Positions 1,528-41,561 of a DNA stretch of 41,561 bases are shown piece after piece (position 1 is the stretch's first letter; each line of letters begins with the position of its first letter). The stretch lies in contig PBKN01000016.1 of the NCBI GenBank assembly GCA_002721445.1, positions 1 through 41,561 of the forward strand, read 5' to 3'. The notes under the pieces were generated by a model, which worked only from the letters and a program-made list of their open reading frames with translations, was not told the origin of the DNA and searched no databases. Made by a program: the position numbers and the translations under genes. This DNA is from Chloroflexota bacterium (GTDB taxonomy: Bacteria; Chloroflexota; Dehalococcoidia; Lucifugimonadales; GCA-002723415).

Positions 1528-3054
1528 TTATTTGTTATTGGTTTTCCAATTCAATATGGTTTCATATCCTTTAGCAACTTGAAGTAGCTGTGCTTCATTA
1601 AAATGTTTGCTAACTAACATTAAGCCAACAGGTAAACCATTGATTTTTCCACAAGGTATAGATATAGCAGGGTGTCCAGTTAGGTTAAATGGCACAGTAT
1701 TTTGCATCATGCTCCATCCATCTTTTATATAATTTACGATATTAGTATTAGAGTTATTTGGATGTGCTGTGATGGGAGTTGTAGGCATAGCAAGTATATC
1801 TATTTCCTCAAAAATATTATTATATGTTTTTTTGAAATCCATTCTTAAATTTTGAGCTTTACCATATAAAAGACCATTAGATTTTTCTTTTATATAACTA
1901 CCAATAATTATTAATAACTTAACTTGAGGAGAAAAACTATTTGATTTATTTTTTCTAGCTGAATTATAAAATTCCATTAAGTCTAGATCATATTCGCCTT
2001 CCCAGTGGTATCCGGAAAGATTACTTGTCAGTGTTTTTGATAAACCTTCTACGCATAATCCCCAGAAAATAATATTTGCATTTAGGTGTTCTGGTAAATT
2101 AATTGACCTTGTTTTTAAACCTAATTGTGATCCTTTTTCTATGCTTTCTAAAACTATTTTATCAACGGCAGGGTCAGAATTCTCACCATCAAAGCCTTGA
2201 GAAAGTATTCCTACAGATAAGCCTTTTATAGAATTATTTATATTTTTTGTATAGTTATGGTTTAAATTATTTGGTATTTTTTGCCTAGGATCTTTTCCAT
2301 CGTATCCTGCAATTACTTCAAGTGTAATTGCTATGTCATCAACATTATTAGCCATTGGTCCAGTTGCATCGAAAGAATGATCATGTCCTACTATACCAGT
2401 GTATGGTATTAATCCATAAGTTGGCTTTAGGCCAACAACTCCGCACCAAGAAGCAGGTATACGTATAGATCCACCTTGGTCTCCTCCTATAGTTATATCT
2501 ATATCTTTGTAAGATAATGCTGCTCCTGAACCGGAAGAAGACCCTCCTGATAAATGATTGTGGTTATGTGGATTCAATGTTACTCCATATGAACATGTAT
2601 TACCTCCTCCAGAGCATCCCAAATGATCCATATTTAAAGAAGCAACTAATTCTGCACCAGAATCCAACAACCTTGTAACTATAGTTGCATCTTTTTTTGC
2701 AATATATCCTTCAAAAACTGATGATCCAGAATTCATTTCCATATCTTTTATAGAGATGCAGCTTTTCAATCCGAAACGTTTTCCATGTAACTTTCCAGAG
2801 GATTTCTCTTTTATACTGAATTTTCTGTATATAGAATTTGTAGGGTCTTCTTTTTTTGTAGGTATTTGCCCGACCATCCTTTTTTGTGATTTTATTTTTT
2901 TTGAAGGCTCGTTTAAATTTTTAAGTTTTTCATATTGGTCAAAATATTCTGGTACCAATTTTTCAAAAGCTGATAATTCATCTGTAGTAAGTTCGAAAAA
3001 ATTTTCTTTAGCTATTCTATTAATATCTTTGTTTGATGGAATTGGTAAATTCAT
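1528..3054 (-). CDS. amidase-signature hydrolase, Rhodococcus enantioselective-amidase type
   Basis: This 508-residue amidase-signature enzyme should hydrolyse an amide to an acid and ammonia in the cytoplasm. The Ser-cisSer-Lys triad is readable: Lys in ISIKDMEMNSG, and the serines in GGSSSGSGAAL and GGDQGGSIRIPASWCGV. The GGDQGGSIRIP form, the following GLVPYTG-like segment (GLIPYTGIVGHDHSFD), the PGD-like GYDGKDPRQ and a long alpha-helical N-terminal extension match the roughly 520-residue Rhodococcus nitrile-pathway amidases rather than GatA. The frame is open up to 3087, but AAGGAG sits 6 bases before the ATG at 3054, so that start (MNLPIPSNK) is preferred. It precedes the dimethylformamidase-like gene by 15 bases, suggesting a two-step or paired amide-degrading operon. 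Substrate not predictable. Confidence 0.9.
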   Translation of the reverse strand: MNLPIPSNKDINRIAKENFFELTTDELSAFEKLVPEYFDQYEKLKNLNEPSKKIKSQKRMVGQIPTKKEDPTNSIYRKFSIKEKSSGKLHGKRFGLKSCISIKDMEMNSGSSVFEGYIAKKDATIVTRLLDSGAELVASLNMDHLGCSGGGNTCSYGVTLNPHNHNHLSGGSSSGSGAALSYKDIDITIGGDQGGSIRIPASWCGVVGLKPTYGLIPYTGIVGHDHSFDATGPMANNVDDIAITLEVIAGYDGKDPRQKIPNNLNHNYTKNINNSIKGLSVGILSQGFDGENSDPAVDKIVLESIEKGSQLGLKTRSINLPEHLNANIIFWGLCVEGLSKTLTSNLSGYHWEGEYDLDLMEFYNSARKNKSNSFSPQVKLLIIIGSYIKEKSNGLLYGKAQNLRMDFKKTYNNIFEEIDILAMPTTPITAHPNNSNTNIVNYIKDGWSMMQNTVPFNLTGHPAISIPCGKINGLPVGLMLVSKHFNEAQLLQVAKGYETILNWKTNNK

Positions 3055-3232
3055 ACATCTCCTTGTGTATAACTTAATGTATTTCAATTAAATTATAATT
3101 TTAATATTTCTTTTTAGCTTTTTATAATTTTAAAGTATGATTAATATACTATATTTTATGTTAAATATACTCTAGTTAATTATTAAATTAAGTAGTTTTA
3201 CGGTTGGATTTTTATCATGTATATGTAATATA

Positions 3233-6200
3233 ATGATTAAGAAAAAATTGTTGGATGTGTTTGTGATCATATATTATTGTAAAAATATTGTTAATAATCC
3301 TAAGGCAAGATTATTTTTACTAGGGATTATTATATTTAGCTTTTTGTATTCGATTAATCTCTCATCTGTTCATGCAGATGGGGAGGTGTTTTTTGAAGAT
3401 GCCCAGTTTGAAAGATTAATACGCTTTACTATTAAAAAGCCTAATGGTCCTATTTACCGTGATGACTTATTTAATATAAGAACCCTTGAAGGGGACAACC
3501 AAAATATTCGAAGTATTCAAGGTATAGAGCATTTAGAGAGTTTATCTTATTTATTCCTTGGAGGAAATCAAATACGTGATTTGATGCCTTTATCTAAATT
3601 GTCAAATTTGAGGGTCTTAATACTTTGGGATAATCAGGTTAAAAATTTAGAACCTTTAAGAGATTTAGCAAATCTAGAGACTTTAATACTCCCAAATAAT
3701 CATATTGAAGATATATCCCCTTTACAAAATCTAATTTACATTGACGAGCTGTCTTTATCCCAAAATCGAATCGAAAACATATCTGCTATAAATAATATGA
3801 AATATTTAGATGTTTTGGAGTTAGGTCAAAATCATATAACGGATATTTCTCCACTTTATGATTTGAATGGTCTTGCAGAATTGTGGCTTGGAGACAACCG
3901 AATATCAGATTTAACTCCACTAAGTAATTTGCAAAATTTGAATTTTTTATATTTGGGAGGGAATAGGGTTGAAGATATAAGTCCACTTGCAGGATTATAT
4001 CGAATCTATCATCTCAATATGGAAGATAACAGGATTAGAGATATATCAACTTTGGAAAATTTAACAGATATTGGTTTTTTGCATTTAAATTTTAATCAAA
4101 TTGAAGATATTTCTCCCCTAGTTAGAAATCTTGGATTGAATTTAGGAGATGAAGTGAAGTTACAAGGGAATCCTTTGAGCAGAAGTTCATATGAAAAAGG
4201 AATCCCTGAATTATTAAATAGAGGAGTAAGGGTTGATTTGCCAGAAGCTGGTTTGTTTGGAGGTAATAATGAAATTTACAATCCTCCAATTAAACAGGAA
4301 TCTCTTATTCAGCAACCTATTAATGCTATTCAAAATTTACTTGGTCAGCAAAATCAGCAGCAACCTCAAAACCCTAGACCTCAGCCAATGCAGCAAACTA
4401 GTTCTTTAGAACTAAAAGTTCCTTCTCATGTTGAAGAATGGGGTATTTCTGATAATGGAATTCGTTGGGGTGTAGCTTTTCTAGGAGAGAATATTTTTGA
4501 CTTAGGAAGTGGAATAATGGGCTGGGCTTTAGCTAATAACGCTGAAGAACAGGCTTTTTTTTATGGACATAAGAGTTTGGTTCAGCCTTTAGGTGGAACA
4601 TCTGACACAGGATTTACTCAATTAATCCCTCCATTTGAAAACAGATGCGTAAGGCCTGGAGAAAATTTAAATGATGATTTTACAGGTTACAGGGGTATTA
4701 AATTTCTTGATGGGTTAACCGATGCAGGTAATTTCGCTTATGATATACCTCATTCAATTAGAATAGGTACTCGTAATTCAGATTGTTATAGTGGTAAATT
4801 ACTTTTTCAACATAATAATCATATAGGAATCATAGATCCTATAGAAATAATTGCTGACCCTAATGTTACCGACAGAGATGTAAGGTATCTTAAAATTCAC
4901 TGGTGGTTAGCTCCTCCAGGTGTTACTGATTTTTCAGATGTGTCAGATCCTGATGAAATGATTGACCAAGAAGACGTTGGTAATTTGCAAATTTATCCAG
5001 GTTCAAGTATAGATAATTCACGATGGCTTTTTGAGGGTCAGCAGGGTAGAGAAGTAGCAATTATGGTGAGAACTGACCAAGGTTCTTTTATAGATCCATA
5101 TGCTGAAATATTACTACCTAATGGTGTATCTGATAAAGAGATTTCAAATGTGATTTCATATGATAGCACTATACCTTTTAATCCTAGTGATATTAAAGGT
5201 CATGTATTTACTTTACCATATAATGGATGGTATGAAATTAATGTTTCTTCCCGCAACGGCCAAGAAGGGAACTACCTTCTTATTATTGACAGCTGTCCTG
5301 ATTTGAACAATTGCAAATATGGGCAACTAAGAGTAGAGAAAGATTCTCAAGCAGTAAAATCTTTTACTGAAGAATATGTTGATGTAGCTCCAAATGCTTC
5401 TGGTATGATTGCGCATAACGGTTTCTTATTCCTGCCTGGAAATAGCAAAGATTCGGTAATTAGAGTTTTTGATAATAATGGAAATTTAGTTAATGAATGG
5501 GGTAGTAGAGGTAGAGGTGAAGGGCAAATTCTTGAGCCTACTAGTATGGCAGTCAACAGAGACAAAGACTGGTTATATATATCAGATGTAGGGAATGATA
5601 AAGTTCATATCTTTGATTTGAATGGTAATTTTATTTCTTCATGGGGAGATTCTGAACCGGCTGCATCCTTTAGAGGTACTCAGGGTTTAGCAGTGTGTGA
5701 TAGATCTACCATGGATCCAGATTATTTTGAAAGTAATGAAGCTAGAGTATATGTTGCAGATAGAGATAATAATAGAATTTTAGCTTTTGATGAAAATGGT
5801 AATTATATTTCTGATTTACGAATTGATAATTTAAATGCTCCAGATGGTTTGGCTACTGACAGATTTTGTAATTTATATATATCTGATAAGCATAATAATC
5901 GTATAATAAAAACTAATCAGGATGGATTGATTTTCGAAGAATTTAACATTAATGGAGCAAATTCATGGGGTGATATCTCTAATGTAGCTTCGTATAATTT
6001 TGGTGATATTCTTCCAACAAAACTAACTTATGATATAAATAATGATTTGCTTTATGTATTAAACGATTTAAATGGAGATGTAGTTGTTTTTAATTCTGAT
6101 GGGATTCTAACTAGAAGAATTGATTCAAGAGAATTGGATATTAGGAGAGTAAGTGAAATTGCTGTTGACAGATTTGGCAAGGCTTATTTCTTTGATGTTT

Positions 6201-6532
6201 CCCAAGGAATTATTAGGTCTTTAAGTTCAGAAGGCCAAGTTTCTTTAAGTGTAGTTTCTAATATTGATTCAGGGAGACGTACTGGCTTAGGTTCTGCTTA
6301 TAATCCACCAAATATGATGCAACCTCCTTTTCCTGGGGTTAATTTAAATCAAGCAAGTAAAACGGAAACTGAAGAATCTGAACCTGAGAACCAAAGAGGG
6401 TTTTTTGTTCCATCTGATACTATTATGAAAGAACTATTAGGAATTGAATGGATAGATCCTACAGTATTAGCTATGTTAGGTATATTTGTAACTATGCTAG
6501 GTACTTTTGCTCAAATGGCTAGAGGTAAGTAA
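3233..6532 (+). CDS. giant secreted/membrane-anchored protein with leucine-rich and NHL-type repeats
   Basis: The 1099-residue product begins with a signal-anchor or long signal peptide (hydrophobic FLLGIIIFSFLYSI at about 28-41, then VHADG). Residues of about 90-330 hold roughly ten 22-residue leucine-rich repeats of internalin type (pattern L..L.L..N.I.DISPL). A Gln/Pro-rich linker follows at 355-395, then an unassigned region at 400-590. A PPC-like beta domain lies near 600-690 (FEGQQGREVAIMV, GWYEINV). NHL/6-bladed propeller repeats fill about 720-1000 (VFDNNGNLVNEWG, LYISDVGNDKVHIFDLNG, VYVADRDNNRI). A single membrane segment at about 1075-1094 with a short basic tail ends it. This predicts a surface recognition protein exposed outside the membrane. 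No good Shine-Dalgarno precedes the ATG. The next gene begins 3 bases after its stop. No enzymatic motif was seen; the ligand is unknown. Confidence 0.85.
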   Translation: MIKKKLLDVFVIIYYCKNIVNNPKARLFLLGIIIFSFLYSINLSSVHADGEVFFEDAQFERLIRFTIKKPNGPIYRDDLFNIRTLEGDNQNIRSIQGIEHLESLSYLFLGGNQIRDLMPLSKLSNLRVLILWDNQVKNLEPLRDLANLETLILPNNHIEDISPLQNLIYIDELSLSQNRIENISAINNMKYLDVLELGQNHITDISPLYDLNGLAELWLGDNRISDLTPLSNLQNLNFLYLGGNRVEDISPLAGLYRIYHLNMEDNRIRDISTLENLTDIGFLHLNFNQIEDISPLVRNLGLNLGDEVKLQGNPLSRSSYEKGIPELLNRGVRVDLPEAGLFGGNNEIYNPPIKQESLIQQPINAIQNLLGQQNQQQPQNPRPQPMQQTSSLELKVPSHVEEWGISDNGIRWGVAFLGENIFDLGSGIMGWALANNAEEQAFFYGHKSLVQPLGGTSDTGFTQLIPPFENRCVRPGENLNDDFTGYRGIKFLDGLTDAGNFAYDIPHSIRIGTRNSDCYSGKLLFQHNNHIGIIDPIEIIADPNVTDRDVRYLKIHWWLAPPGVTDFSDVSDPDEMIDQEDVGNLQIYPGSSIDNSRWLFEGQQGREVAIMVRTDQGSFIDPYAEILLPNGVSDKEISNVISYDSTIPFNPSDIKGHVFTLPYNGWYEINVSSRNGQEGNYLLIIDSCPDLNNCKYGQLRVEKDSQAVKSFTEEYVDVAPNASGMIAHNGFLFLPGNSKDSVIRVFDNNGNLVNEWGSRGRGEGQILEPTSMAVNRDKDWLYISDVGNDKVHIFDLNGNFISSWGDSEPAASFRGTQGLAVCDRSTMDPDYFESNEARVYVADRDNNRILAFDENGNYISDLRIDNLNAPDGLATDRFCNLYISDKHNNRIIKTNQDGLIFEEFNINGANSWGDISNVASYNFGDILPTKLTYDINNDLLYVLNDLNGDVVVFNSDGILTRRIDSRELDIRRVSEIAVDRFGKAYFFDVSQGIIRSLSSEGQVSLSVVSNIDSGRRTGLGSAYNPPNMMQPPFPGVNLNQASKTETEESEPENQRGFFVPSDTIMKELLGIEWIDPTVLAMLGIFVTMLGTFAQMARGK

Positions 6533-33262: not shown

Positions 33263-33928
33263 TTATTTTTCAACAGATGTATTATGCCAAAAAGCTACGC
33301 CAAGTAATACAGCTTCTATTTTAGAAGAAACTCCAAGTTTATTAAATATACTATTAAAATGGCCTTCTACTGTTCTAACACTAATATTTAAGTCCACTCC
33401 TATATCTTTATTTCGTAGGCCTTTGATTGCTAGTTTTAAAACTTCAACTTCCCTAGTAGATAAAGATTCAATTCCTATAGTTTTCTTTATATTTCCACGT
33501 CTCTTTTCATTCCATATTCTAGCTAATCTTAAAGATATCTTAGGGTCTAAGACAGATTCGCCTTGATGTACAGTTCTAATTGCTTCAGCTAATTCATTTG
33601 GCTCTACTGACTTAAGAAGGTAGCCTGCAGCGCCAGCTTCCATTGCGTCAAGTATATATTCATCGTCAGCAAATGCAGTTAGTATTAATCCACGAGTATT
33701 TGTTCCAGTTTTCTTTAAATCCTGCAGTACTTCAACACCGTTAAGAATTGGCATTCTAATATCAATAATTGCAATTTCAGGTTTTTTAGATTTAATTAGT
33801 TCTAGAAATGATTGACCATTAGAAGCTTCCCCTATAATTTGAAAGTCGTTAAATTCCCCTAGAATCCTTTTGATTCCTTCACGTACTAATGAGTGGTCTT
33901 CTCCTATAACTATAGTGATTGGATTCAT
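33263..33928 (-). CDS. NarL/FixJ-family response regulator (orphan)
   Basis: The 221-residue two-domain regulator has an N-terminal receiver with acidic residues in VIGEDHSLVREG, the phospho-acceptor Asp56 in IAIIDIRMPILNG, the Thr of LTAFADDEY and the Lys of GYLLKSVEPNE. A linker leads to a LuxR-type helix-turn-helix at about 155-215 (LSTREVEVLKLAIKGLRNKDI, NISVRTVEGHFNSIFNKLGV). The KDIGVDLNISVRTVE segment is the DNA-recognition helix region. No histidine kinase is adjacent, so the partner is unlinked. The gene is divergent from the fibronectin-domain surface protein, which it might control. A weak GTGAGA precedes the ATG. Confidence 0.95.
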   Translation of the reverse strand: MNPITIVIGEDHSLVREGIKRILGEFNDFQIIGEASNGQSFLELIKSKKPEIAIIDIRMPILNGVEVLQDLKKTGTNTRGLILTAFADDEYILDAMEAGAAGYLLKSVEPNELAEAIRTVHQGESVLDPKISLRLARIWNEKRRGNIKKTIGIESLSTREVEVLKLAIKGLRNKDIGVDLNISVRTVEGHFNSIFNKLGVSSKIEAVLLGVAFWHNTSVEK

Positions 33929-34058: not shown

Positions 34059-34136
34059 CTTACTAAAATAAACAATCAATAACGTTAACTTAACTTTATT
34101 TGTGTTTATTTATTAAGCTTAGTTATGGAGATGAAT

Positions 34137-37100
34137 ATGGATACGTTATTTACGAAGATTCAAGCTTGGAGTCTGCAAATAATACTAATTTTAATTGTAA
34201 TTATTGCAGCTTTAATATTTAGAATGTCAAATGGTTCTGTTCTGGGTTTTGGTGTTGCAACTGGATTAACATGTGAACAGTTATACCCTGCAGAAACGTC
34301 TATTCCTGGAGGCCCTTTAGAATATTTTGTTTCAGGTGCCATAAATGAAGAAAATAAATTCGATTGTTTTTGGATACCAGGTAATGATGGAGATGAGATT
34401 AATATAGGATTTACTGCAGAAGCAATAACTGATTTAGATTTTTATAATCCAAGTGAAACATTAACTGACGACCCATATAACTTCGGCCATAATTATGCTG
34501 TATCCTCAGGGGATATTAAAGTGATTGAATGGGCAATTCCTATGCCTTCTTCATATTACGAAACTCTATCAGGAGGAACAGGGGATTATTATTTTAAAGT
34601 TCATCAATATGGAGGATTTGTTGAAAATAGCAGATATTCGTTAGAAATTATAAGAGCAGAAACTCCACTTCTTAAAGACGATATGGTTGCAACTATGCCT
34701 GAACCAATATCTGCTCCTTTTGATGTCAGTTTATATGGATATGATTATTCTAATCCATCCTTTGTAGAACATTTATATGTAAGCCATAATAATGATTCTT
34801 ATACAGGAACTTATTGGTATATAGGAAATGACTTCAATAACTATCCAGTTTGGTTAAACCCAGATTGCGGAGAATCATGTTATATATATAGATATCCTGT
34901 AGCATTTACAATGAGTGGATGGGTATGGGTACTTCAACCTTCACCTCCAAGTACTGAATGGCTTGCTAATGCATATATAGATTCTGACTGGCCTTGGGAG
35001 ATGGTGGTTGGTGGGGATAACTGGGGCCCTGATGTGGAATTTGTAGATATATTACCTTCAGCAGCTGTAGCTGCAGCTGAAGTAGGTAGTACAGGCAGTT
35101 CGTATGCAGAGCCTGCAACTGATTGTTTAGAGCTTGAATATAATGAAACATATAGCGGATTAATAACTAGTTCAGATCATTATGACTGCTACTTTTTTAT
35201 AGGTGAAGATTCTGACTTTATTACTTTTGAATTTGATGCTACATCTAACTTAGATTTAGAAGTTTATAACCCATTTGAGATTTTAACTCCAGATATTAAT
35301 AATTATGGACCTACTGCATATGCAAATAGTTACACTTTACCGTATTTAAATTTAATGCTTGAAGATGGTCCTGGTTTCTATGGATTGAAAGTTCATAATT
35401 TTGGTAAAGAAATATCTTTAATCGAAGATACTTCTTATGTATTAAAAGTAGCTTCAGATACTGAAACTTATACTAGTGATTCTGTTTATTCTACTAGTAC
35501 TACTGCTATAGTTGCTTGTGATACATTAGCTCCTCCTGACTATATTACTGGATATATACCTGAAACTGGTCTCGATGAGATGGTGTTAGAATGGACTGTT
35601 CCATGTAGTATTACTGAAAATCCAATCGTTGGTTATGTGATTGATTCAGTGAAAATTAATAATCCTTTTGATCCAACTTGGTCTTATGGACCACTTACCA
35701 GTGTTGGAGTTGATAATGATCAAGATCAAGGCGTTATAGGAGATGGATATTTTAATTATGTACTTATAAATGATCTTGAAGCAGGATCAGCTTATGAAAT
35801 TACTGTTTCCTCTATAGATAGTACAGGCATGAAAAGTGCTCCTTCTTATCCGTTATTTTTAGAGGCACCTATTTCTAGCCCTTCTAAACCTGGTAATGTG
35901 ATCGCTAGTTTAATTAATAATAAAGAAATAGTAATTAGCTGGAATAAATCTATTGAAGACGGAGGTTCTCCTATAAATGGATATCAAGTTTTATTAAATG
36001 CTAGTCCTAATCCTTCAACTTCTGATGATTGGTCTATAGCAGTTGACTGGGTTCCATCTGCAGAATCCTTATTAATGAGTTCTTCTACTGCAGGATATGC
36101 GCCAAAAGCTGAAGATATAGATGATTACTATGAGATTTTATTTAATGTAGATTCTGTTGTTCCTTTTGGATCTGAATATCAGTTTGTTGTGTTAGCTTAC
36201 AATGACGCTGGATTTACGACTTTTTCTGATCCTACAGATATAATAATTGCTCATAATTCAGATAATATGCTTTCAACGCCTGATGGAGCATATGCTGAAA
36301 TAATTGTAGATACTTTTAATATAAATTTGGAAGAATATCCTTCTGCTCCATCAGCACTTGTAGGAAGTACTTATAAAGCTGATGCTGTTAGGGTTGTTTG
36401 GGGAACTACACCATTATTAGATAATGAATCTTATGTTGTTTACATGTATAAAGGACAGAATTCCATGAACAATATTACTGGAAACCCAGATTGGGTATTT
36501 GGATCTGGGTCAAAGAAAATTACAACTAATGAATTAATAATCCCACGTCATTTCTTTGCTAGAACTGCAGAAGATGGCAAGTTGAACTCGGATTATTCTG
36601 ATGGATATGAGAATTGGTTTTTTACAATAAGATTGATAAATTCGGCTACGGGAATGGAAAGTGATGAGTCGCATCCTAGTAATTTCATAACATTACGGCC
36701 TGAGTATAGAACATTTGATATGGGGTATCTAACTGGAGGTAATATATCTAATACTGGCTGGATGGCTTATAGTGACCAACAAGATATATGGTTTTTTGAA
36801 GGATCTGAAGGTGAGAAGATAGATTTAAAAATAAATAATAATTTGTCTTCCTTTGAGCCTTTAATAGCTTTATTATATATATATGATAAAGATCAAAGTG
36901 CTATATATAATTTAATAAATAATTATGGAGGTTATGATCTTTTAGATTGGAGTGCTCCTCCTAACTATGAGTTAGGTATAACAAGTATAAATAATTATGA
37001 ACTACCTATATCTGGGACTTACGCTGTTAGAGTTATTACGTCAAGTCATGTAAATAAAGATGGTTATGAAATATATTTAAATAAAACTCCCCCAATCGCT

Positions 37101-37427
37101 CCTGTTACTCAGACTCCTATTTATATAGAATATCCATCTTGGATGGAATATATAGAGGCTAATCAAGAAACATATATTACTTGGACTAGTGTTCCAGAAG
37201 CAATTTCTTATAAAGTAGATATTTATAATACAAATAACCCAATGAGTACAATTAGGTGGTCAAAAACCGTAAGTACAAATCAACTCAAAGTTCTGTTTTC
37301 GAATTTAGAAACTGGCGATTATTATGTTAGGGTTGCTTATGAATATTTGGATGAGAATAATAGCCTACGTTTAAGTGAGTGGAGTTATCCTTTAATGTTT
37401 AGCGTTGGGATAAATTTAGTACCTTAG
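34137..37427 (+). CDS. giant cell-surface protein with PPC-like and fibronectin type III-like domains
   Basis: The 1096-residue product has an N-terminal signal-anchor (LQIILILIVIIAALIF) and is otherwise extracellular and acidic. Two related beta domains, at about 45-175 and 325-445, align with each other: DCFWIPGNDGDEINI near 76 and DCYFFIGEDSDFITF near 350, each followed by a YNP motif and a YxFKVHQYG or YGLKVHNFG strand. They look like bacterial pre-peptidase (PPC) domains. Fibronectin III-like domains follow at about 463-575, 581-710 and 731-850. A third PPC-like region lies near 855-960 and a last FN3-like domain at about 990-1090. No catalytic motif was seen. Three in-frame ATGs (34125, 34131, 34137) compete; GGAG six bases before the third favours 34137. 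A strong terminator follows. Confidence 0.85.
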   Translation: MDTLFTKIQAWSLQIILILIVIIAALIFRMSNGSVLGFGVATGLTCEQLYPAETSIPGGPLEYFVSGAINEENKFDCFWIPGNDGDEINIGFTAEAITDLDFYNPSETLTDDPYNFGHNYAVSSGDIKVIEWAIPMPSSYYETLSGGTGDYYFKVHQYGGFVENSRYSLEIIRAETPLLKDDMVATMPEPISAPFDVSLYGYDYSNPSFVEHLYVSHNNDSYTGTYWYIGNDFNNYPVWLNPDCGESCYIYRYPVAFTMSGWVWVLQPSPPSTEWLANAYIDSDWPWEMVVGGDNWGPDVEFVDILPSAAVAAAEVGSTGSSYAEPATDCLELEYNETYSGLITSSDHYDCYFFIGEDSDFITFEFDATSNLDLEVYNPFEILTPDINNYGPTAYANSYTLPYLNLMLEDGPGFYGLKVHNFGKEISLIEDTSYVLKVASDTETYTSDSVYSTSTTAIVACDTLAPPDYITGYIPETGLDEMVLEWTVPCSITENPIVGYVIDSVKINNPFDPTWSYGPLTSVGVDNDQDQGVIGDGYFNYVLINDLEAGSAYEITVSSIDSTGMKSAPSYPLFLEAPISSPSKPGNVIASLINNKEIVISWNKSIEDGGSPINGYQVLLNASPNPSTSDDWSIAVDWVPSAESLLMSSSTAGYAPKAEDIDDYYEILFNVDSVVPFGSEYQFVVLAYNDAGFTTFSDPTDIIIAHNSDNMLSTPDGAYAEIIVDTFNINLEEYPSAPSALVGSTYKADAVRVVWGTTPLLDNESYVVYMYKGQNSMNNITGNPDWVFGSGSKKITTNELIIPRHFFARTAEDGKLNSDYSDGYENWFFTIRLINSATGMESDESHPSNFITLRPEYRTFDMGYLTGGNISNTGWMAYSDQQDIWFFEGSEGEKIDLKINNNLSSFEPLIALLYIYDKDQSAIYNLINNYGGYDLLDWSAPPNYELGITSINNYELPISGTYAVRVITSSHVNKDGYEIYLNKTPPIAPVTQTPIYIEYPSWMEYIEANQETYITWTSVPEAISYKVDIYNTNNPMSTIRWSKTVSTNQLKVLFSNLETGDYYVRVAYEYLDENNSLRLSEWSYPLMFSVGINLVP

Positions 37428-39474: not shown

Positions 39475-39509
39475 TGCTAAATACTTCTTGTAAGTAGAAA
39501 ATATTGAGT

Positions 39510-41561
39510 ATGGATAAAAAACAAATAGGCAAATACCAACTTCTTGAAAGAATTGCTTCTGGTGCTCAAGGTACTGTATTTAGAGCATATGATACAAGTC
39601 ATGGACAGATTGTAGCTTTAAAAGTAATTCAGGTTGGCCCTAGTATGGGAGATGATTTTCTTGAAAGATTTCATAGAGAGTCATCAATTGCTGCATCCAT
39701 AGATCATCCAAATGTGGTAGATATATATGATCAAGGTGAAGCTGACGGTGAACATTATATAGCTGTAGAGTTTGTACCTGAAAATTTATCTAGGATTATT
39801 GAGAGTGGCGGTCCAATGAATCCTAAGCGAGCTGTAGAAGTTGCAATACAGATTGCAAGTGGTTTAACAGCAGCTCATGATGCTGGGATTTTACATAGAG
39901 ATATTAAACCTGCAAATATATTAATTCAAGCTGATGGAGCACCCAAAATTACAGATTTTGGGATTGCATCAGCTGACGTTTTACCATCTATGACTGGGAC
40001 TTTAGAATCTTTAGGTACACCAAATTACATGTCACCTGAGCAAATATCTGCTCAGGATGTAGACCATAGATCAGATATATATTCATTAGGATGTTTAATA
40101 TATGAGATGTTAACAGGCCAGCCACCTTTTACTGGTAAAAATACATTTGAGGTGTTGAAAAAGCAAACGGATGAAACGCCTGCACCAGTTAAAGATTTTC
40201 GTGATGATGTTCCTAATGAATTAGATGAATTAATTTTAAAGTCACTAGAGAAAAAACCAGATAAAAGGCCTCAAACTGCAGCTGAGTTTGCAGAAGATTT
40301 ACAATATATTTCTGAATCTTTAGGTGAAGAGTCAGCTGGAGGAACTCGAAAGCTGCCTGTATCATTACCGACTAGAAAAATTATACGATCTGGAAAAAGA
40401 TTTGGGAAGAGAAATTTTGTTACAAGTATAGTTGGAGTTTTAGCAATAGCTGCAATAAGTGGAATAGCTTATTTTGGTGCAACTTCAGGATTAATTGGTT
40501 CTGCAATAGGCTCTGGAGATTCTTCAACTTTGTCATCTGTTGAGTGGTTGCAAAAAGCTCAGACAACTCCTGATTTAGCTAGTGTGGAGCTTCTTGATGA
40601 AATAAATGAAGATTCTGAATTAGCTGCTGAAGGAATAATATCTGCAAGTAATGACGATATTAATGCTATAGCTAATGTAGTTAGTTTTGCTGCTAACAGT
40701 GATTCTGAGAAAATCGGACTTATGATGAGCCAAGGAGCTAGATTAGACTCTGCAGTAATGTCTAATATTATCTCAATAATTTATGATACTGCAGTAGATG
40801 AAAAGTCAAAGCAAAATATAGCTGACGCCTTTATTATTGCAGCTGAAATTGATGCTGATATCGTTTCTTCTATACTATCAGATAATTCTTCTGAAGATAA
40901 TTCTGAAGCATTAGGTTATGTTCTAATAAAAAACACTGCAGAATCTATAATATGGAATGATTTAGTTGTAAATGCTGTAAATTCAAATGCAGCAATTTCG
41001 GCTAAAGTTTTAAATGCTGCAGGTAAAATCGACCCTGAAAGTGCAACTAGCAGACTTTCAGAAGTAGTAGATTCAATTTCTTCATCTGAAGGTAAAGAAT
41101 TTATTAAGAGTTTAGGTTCTGAGATGCCAGTAGATATTTGGCTTAAGGAATCTTTACCAAATCCTGGATGGGATCCATATGGAAACGGAATATGGGGTGA
41201 ACTATCTCAAGGAGGCTCTGGCAGCGGTTCTTTTGCTAGAATTTTTGGTAAATTTAATGATCTTCCACAGACTGCAGTAAGTATAAACATTGATGAAATA
41301 AATCCTAGTGTACCTGATTCAAGAGAAGGTAGAGTAGTAAAAGAGTATTTTCAAATTGATAAGACAGGATTTGAAAATGAAGATTTAGTATCTGCACATT
41401 TAATTGTTCCGATTGAGAAGTCATGGTTTGAAGAGAATGATTTACATGAATGGTCTATTGAATTTAGCAGATTTAATGAAAGTAATTCAACTTGGAATTC
41501 TGTAACAGCTAAAAGAATGTCTGAAGATGAAAGTGCCGTTTATTATAGTATTCCAATTTCA
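39510..41561 (+). CDS. membrane Ser/Thr protein kinase with PGF-pre-PGF-like extracellular domain (partial, right edge)
   Basis: The frame is open for 684 codons to the window edge. Residues 1-270 form a Hanks-type kinase with all key residues: glycine loop IASGAQGTVF, Lys38 in VALKVI, Glu57 in RFHRES, HRDIKPAN at 129-136, DFG at 149-151, GTPNYMSPEQ and DIYSLGCLIYEML. A basic juxtamembrane stretch leads to one membrane helix at about 303-330. The outer part first has an Ala/Ser/Asp-rich helical repeat-like region (about 345-540). It then has a beta domain whose last 65 residues (VVKEYFQID, IVPIEKSWFEEND, WSIEFSRFNES, YYSIPIS) fit the PGF-pre-PGF pattern known from archaeal and some bacterial surface proteins. 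No PASTA repeats. No clear Shine-Dalgarno before the ATG. Ligand and targets unknown. Confidence 0.88.
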   Translation, partial: MDKKQIGKYQLLERIASGAQGTVFRAYDTSHGQIVALKVIQVGPSMGDDFLERFHRESSIAASIDHPNVVDIYDQGEADGEHYIAVEFVPENLSRIIESGGPMNPKRAVEVAIQIASGLTAAHDAGILHRDIKPANILIQADGAPKITDFGIASADVLPSMTGTLESLGTPNYMSPEQISAQDVDHRSDIYSLGCLIYEMLTGQPPFTGKNTFEVLKKQTDETPAPVKDFRDDVPNELDELILKSLEKKPDKRPQTAAEFAEDLQYISESLGEESAGGTRKLPVSLPTRKIIRSGKRFGKRNFVTSIVGVLAIAAISGIAYFGATSGLIGSAIGSGDSSTLSSVEWLQKAQTTPDLASVELLDEINEDSELAAEGIISASNDDINAIANVVSFAANSDSEKIGLMMSQGARLDSAVMSNIISIIYDTAVDEKSKQNIADAFIIAAEIDADIVSSILSDNSSEDNSEALGYVLIKNTAESIIWNDLVVNAVNSNAAISAKVLNAAGKIDPESATSRLSEVVDSISSSEGKEFIKSLGSEMPVDIWLKESLPNPGWDPYGNGIWGELSQGGSGSGSFARIFGKFNDLPQTAVSINIDEINPSVPDSREGRVVKEYFQIDKTGFENEDLVSAHLIVPIEKSWFEENDLHEWSIEFSRFNESNSTWNSVTAKRMSEDESAVYYSIPIS

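Follow-up and report, generated by a model that had tools for sequence, protein, structure and literature searches.

A Chloroflexota receptor Ser/Thr kinase with a PGF-pre-PGF-like surface-protein ectodomain

The locus

The stretch of DNA analysed here (the window) is 41561 bp long and constitutes an entire contig, C16. At its 3′ end lies a gene for a Ser/Thr kinase that is joined through a membrane helix to a long outer part (Table 1). The reading frame opens with a TTG codon at 39504, from which the residues of this protein are numbered throughout, and stays open through 41561, the final base of the window, where it leaves the contig. The third residue, encoded by the ATG at 39510, lines up with the Met-Asp start (MDLKEIGGYQ...) of distant relatives; because these begin at the same Met-Asp, the ATG appears the likelier start, and the alignment thereby backs the start chosen in the initial annotation.

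Contig C8 carries, at its right end, an ORF that is open on the 5′ side and encodes repeated PPC-like domains (L049 5032-6687, minus strand); it could continue the kinase gene. The join is tentative, because the CARDB and stalk part is missing from the assembly and the closest relative, SP321, also stops within a PPC-like domain. Elsewhere, the window encodes a large protein (34125-37427) that looks secreted and contains FN3 domains and weak PPC-like ones, and which by eye has a segment of the VWVLQPGPPTTEW type in common with the C8 ORF, and a 1099-residue protein in which leucine-rich repeats are followed by a six-bladed propeller/NHL region (3233-6532).

Table 1. Features of the kinase gene and a possible signalling partner, in window coordinates
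Feature	Position	Strand	Evidence and remarks
NarL-type response regulator, possible partner	33263..33928	-	47% identity to the regulator beside a fused kinase in G247; 5.6 kb upstream of the window kinase
Fused receptor kinase, coding region	39510..41561	+	ATG at 39510; in-frame TTG upstream at 39504; 3′ end lost at contig edge
Hanks-type Ser/Thr kinase domain, catalytic motifs intact	39534..40277	+	PF00069, 5.6e-55; VALK, HRD, DFG, SPE
Single transmembrane helix, positive charge on kinase side	40413..40484	+	Hydropathy maximum 2.1 over 19 residues, at 304-327
Helical region, probable α-solenoid; the 15-residue repeats known from standalone relatives are degenerate here	40536..41093	+	Low-confidence model; 15-residue period in L066, L069 and L059; 50% identity to SP321
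Conserved stretch leading into PGF-pre-PGF, KEFIKSLGSEMPVDIW...GKFN	41094..41303	+	93% identity to SP321; aligns in relatives
PGF-pre-PGF-like domain, model positions 59-140 of 153	41304..41549	+	TIGR04213, 31.9-34.9 bits (cut-off 28)

Kinase domain and membrane helix

The Pkinase domain spans residues 11-258 in a Pfam scan (E 5.6e-55), and its catalytic motifs are all present (the lysine of VALK at residue 40, HRD at 131, DFG at 151 and SPE at 177). The combination of this domain with the catalytic lysine, HRD and DFG identifies the product, as judged from its sequence, as a Hanks-type Ser/Thr kinase, and a complete one, as initially annotated. The one membrane helix that had been proposed corresponds to the single hydrophobic stretch, at about residues 304-327, which is preceded by the basic sequence RSGKRFGKRN. 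The window genome holds three Hanks kinases.

The outer part

The first portion of the outer part is a helical region in which a low-confidence AlphaFold model based on three sequences (mean pLDDT 49) places helices every 15 residues. The 15-residue repeats are degenerate here in comparison with standalone relatives, and the repeat matrix of one such relative (L066) scores the region only slightly better than shuffled sequences, 17 of 500 shuffles being as good.

The PGF-pre-PGF domain takes its name from archaeal proteins sorted by archaeosortase. Its NCBIfam model, TIGR04213, matches residues 601-682. The whole protein scores 31.9 bits and the outer part alone 33.5 bits, both above the curated cut-off of 28 bits; the HMM search proposed with the initial annotation has thus come out in favour of the domain. 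The match is not full-length, as it covers positions 59-140 of 153, the first ~58 model positions being unmatched and 13 being lost at the contig end. TIGR04213 matches nothing else in the window genome. No SLH domain was found in Pfam scans of the window protein and the scanned relatives. Nor was a PGF-CTERM seen by eye in the Chloroflexota members that were read, where relatives end in a transmembrane helix and a basic tail; the C-terminus of the window protein lies beyond the contig.

An ortholog in a second family

The closest relative found is encoded in the Chloroflexi MAG SP321 (L035), with an identical order of parts and 78% identity. Beyond the point at which the window ends, its frame runs on through GFSTWSISG; a CARDB-like Ig domain and a long TPTPVPPTATP stalk follow, and then a PPC-like domain, inside which this frame too leaves its contig. 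TIGR04213 scores 40.6 bits in this protein, with the match reaching from position 60 to 153, the last of the model, and the first third unmatched. Between the window and SP321 copies, identity amounts to 89% in the kinase, 95% in the PGF part and 50% in the solenoid, with corresponding dN/dS values of 0.19, 0.19 and 0.49. By these values, the PGF-pre-PGF domain is constrained like the kinase, with the solenoid freer to vary.

The two genomes are assigned to different families, and the similarity of their kinase genes is unusual. At the DNA level, 82% identity extends along the whole kinase gene (window 39478-41561 against SP321 L127 781-2918), whereas the rest of the SP321 contig, which is 16.5 kb long in all, finds only short patches in the window genome. 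Likewise, a 20 kb portion of the window that takes in housekeeping genes finds only short patches in the SP321 genome, the longest being 348 bases at 72%, and two further protein pairs are 50% and 38% identical. There is no conserved operon around the window kinase, the SP321 neighbours being different. A similarity so largely confined to this gene would be explained by lateral transfer or by one contig having been misbinned. Within the gene, synonymous distance is uneven, from 0.05 in the transmembrane segment and 0.13 in the PGF part to 0.35 in the kinase and 0.83 in the solenoid.

Recurrence of the fusion

Using the outer part as query, 250 genomes of the order were searched, and the frames around the matches were read. 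A kinase and a PGF-pre-PGF domain lie in one frame in five genes from four genomes, all of family f34 (G240, G242, G243 and, with two genes, G247), and a 5′-cut fragment was found in G244. These, together with SP321, provide the count of kinases of this architecture that the initial annotation had called for. Both G247 frames are complete, at 1961 and 1765 residues, and in both the PGF part is followed by Ig domains that Pfam assigns to Big_13. The PGF domains of f34 fall below the TIGR04213 cut-off, with 18.7 and 18.5 bits in two members and the other two that were scanned going unlisted; they were identified by way of the SP321 domain, which the first copy per gene resembles with E 2e-9 to 4e-19. 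In G240, the fused kinase (L128 13-1743) ends within Big_13, and an overlapping frame (1722-4877) seems to continue it, pointing to a frameshift or an assembly error. Viral contigs yielded no relatives.

The window and SP321 copies both run off their contigs and the source genomes are MAGs, which could raise the suspicion that assembly or annotation created the fusion, or that the outer part is a separate gene. We regard this as very improbable: the junction between kinase and PGF part is in frame inside contigs in six genomes from three families, and the complete 1961-residue frame lies deep inside a 291 kb contig. The fusion of kinase and surface module can be taken as real because it recurs in other genomes of the order, and the single frame in SP321 and in family f34, two independent lineages, confirms that kinase and outer part form one gene in relatives.

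In a tree with 20 further kinases from the order, among them both paralogs from the window genome, the seven fused kinases form one clade (support 100/99). In a tree of the PGF and CARDB parts, one standalone protein, the lipoprotein L059, groups with the fused members at 99/96. A single origin of the fusion is not rejected (p-AU 0.25). The PGF part of L059 nests inside the fused kinases (81/80), compatible with a loss of the kinase. The simplest reading of these trees is one fusion event, possibly followed by kinase loss in L059.

Surface proteins with the same ectodomain

The ectodomain also occurs without a kinase, at about 30 loci of the order and at more in the class. Residues 329-912 of the SP321 protein align along L069, and similar ranges align along L059, L065, L066 and L073. 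These standalone proteins are built alike: a signal or helix at the N-terminus is followed by 15-residue repeats, the PGF-pre-PGF and CARDB domains and a Pro/Thr stalk, usually with a transmembrane helix at the C-terminus. L148, a standalone protein from a different order within the class, is arranged in the same way (TIGR04213, 48.5 bits). The repeats give a lag-15 autocorrelation of 0.40-0.57 in L066, L069 and L059 and are matched by MgtE_N in L030 and L070. L059 itself (2496-6434) is lipoprotein-like, with YHYH and PDZ domains after the ectodomain. In the ~1.5 kb read upstream of strong class-level ectodomain matches, no kinase was found. A paralogous kinase of the window genome, on contig C9, has an outer part whose end looks similar by eye; it proved to be unrelated to the PGF/CARDB profile.

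Because the ectodomain exists without a kinase in surface proteins of relatives, the domain exchange with such proteins that had been suggested from the window alone gains support. What kinases and surface proteins have in common is a larger module than PGF-pre-PGF alone, comprising the helical solenoid, the PGF-pre-PGF-like and CARDB-like domains and the Pro/Thr stalk. The earlier description of an outer part ending in PGF-pre-PGF therefore stands as to the presence of the domain and not as to its position, since PPC and Big_13 domains follow in longer members.

The occurrence of this module in kinase-free anchored surface proteins, where a signalling role is unneeded, and the fast evolution of the solenoid would both suit an outer part that is a tether rather than a sensor, anchoring or placing the kinase in the wall or at the cell pole while regulation comes from the cytoplasmic side. 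We consider this unlikely, given that PGF-pre-PGF and the stretch preceding it are as conserved as the kinase, beyond the needs of a plain spacer, and that two lineages have retained the fusion.

The additional domains bear on a second alternative, in which a soluble compound such as a sugar, peptide or ion is sensed instead of a surface layer, being bound by the PPC, CARDB or Big domains. Among solved structures, the outer part is matched in its CARDB-like part only, and weakly, by the Ig domains of carbohydrate enzymes, and it is in the long members that PPC-like and Big_13 domains follow, both in keeping with a soluble ligand. No binding pocket or conserved ligand site was identifiable, however, and the relatives of the ectodomain resemble anchored surface proteins and not solute-binding proteins, which makes a soluble signal rather unlikely in our view.

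Signalling neighbourhood

In one other genus, genes for further signalling proteins lie close to the fused kinase. A PP2C phosphatase is found nearby in G242 and G243 (by sequence start) and in G247 (by Pfam), and a divergent NarL-type response regulator in G243 and G247, the stretch being masked in G242. In G247, the fused kinase is directly followed by an FHA domain-guanylate cyclase, while further upstream there is a histidine kinase that includes a cNMP-binding part. The window genome was found to contain a single PP2C and a single FHA protein, 43% and 41% identical to the neighbours of fused kinases; their genes adjoin the C9 paralog and not this kinase. We infer that the window kinase shares the phosphatase and the FHA reader with this paralog.

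Two FHA-domain proteins encoded beside kinases, L125 10225-11079 and L052 4936-5847, are 41% identical to each other. In the former, the FHA part is joined to a class III nucleotide cyclase, with a cNMP-binding histidine kinase nearby, and this fusion suggests a point of contact between Ser/Thr kinase signalling and cyclic nucleotides.

Proposed mode of action

Taken together, and with moderate confidence, we favour a single-pass receptor Ser/Thr kinase that has an outer module drawn from a family of membrane-anchored surface proteins of Chloroflexota and that senses through surface contact. The architecture places the N-terminal kinase in the cytoplasm, with the helix crossing the membrane and the surface-protein module outside, predicted to run from the helical solenoid through the PGF-pre-PGF-like β-domain, the CARDB-like Ig domain and the Pro/Thr-rich stalk to PPC, with Big_13 Ig domains in some members. 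The long outer part may reach through the wall and bind other surface components. PknB-type kinases are switched by pairing (reviewed in PMC6213207), and here a changed surface contact could pair or separate the kinase domains and so govern trans-autophosphorylation. The signal would then pass to FHA-domain and response-regulator proteins, with the PP2C phosphatase of the genome reversing it.

What such a receptor monitors is probably the condition of the cell surface; that it is the S-layer which is sensed is a plausible guess. An S-layer has been demonstrated for Tepidiforma, a genus of the Dehalococcoidia (PMC10284905), and in SAR202 it is predicted only (PMC5395668). More tentatively, the ectodomain, being homologous to the anchored surface proteins of the cell itself, might bind these homotypically, in which case the kinase would represent a distinct class of bacterial receptor kinase, would read the assembly of or damage to the coat and would spread between families laterally; we think this possible rather than probable. 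In the open-access literature, no ligand or binding partner for any PGF-pre-PGF domain was found, nor any paper on this domain in kinases.

A clade of kinases that has acquired a surface-protein ectodomain would connect, in a way open to experiment, the outer coat of the largely uncultured Chloroflexota with phosphorylation signalling. The fused kinases also give the PGF-pre-PGF domain a functional context outside archaeal surface proteins.

Comparison with known systems

The known sensors of bacterial Ser/Thr receptor kinases are mainly peptidoglycan-binding PASTA repeats, along with a few propellers. The window protein resembles the PASTA receptor kinases (PknB, PrkC and Stk1) in its Hanks kinase, which its best NCBIfam match assigns to their subfamily (NF033483, 5.8e-94, residues 9-271), its one transmembrane helix and its outer sensor part. 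It differs from them in lacking PASTA repeats in a Pfam scan, in reaching 316 bits where the equivalog cut-off of NF033483 is 450, and in having an outer part composed of solenoid, PGF-pre-PGF and CARDB. The PknD-type β-propeller kinases likewise combine a kinase, a transmembrane helix and a large outer domain, whereas the outer part of the window protein has no propeller matches. The absence of the usual PASTA or propeller sensors, noted in the initial annotation, is thus borne out.

With the archaeal PGF-pre-PGF surface proteins, the window protein shares a domain scoring above the TIGR04213 cut-off, and the pattern EKSWFEEN...R....S.W...ED..YY is found in an Aenigmatarchaeota protein (L036) too. 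Unlike these proteins, it is bacterial, fused to a kinase and anchored in the membrane upstream of the domain, and no PGF-CTERM was seen in the Chloroflexota members read. The standalone Chloroflexota proteins (L066, L069, L073 and L148) align along the whole ectodomain; they lack the kinase, and most are anchored by a C-terminal transmembrane helix, in contrast to the kinase-side helix of the window protein. Set against these systems, the fused kinase is a variant of the receptor Ser/Thr kinases and not a new kind of system.
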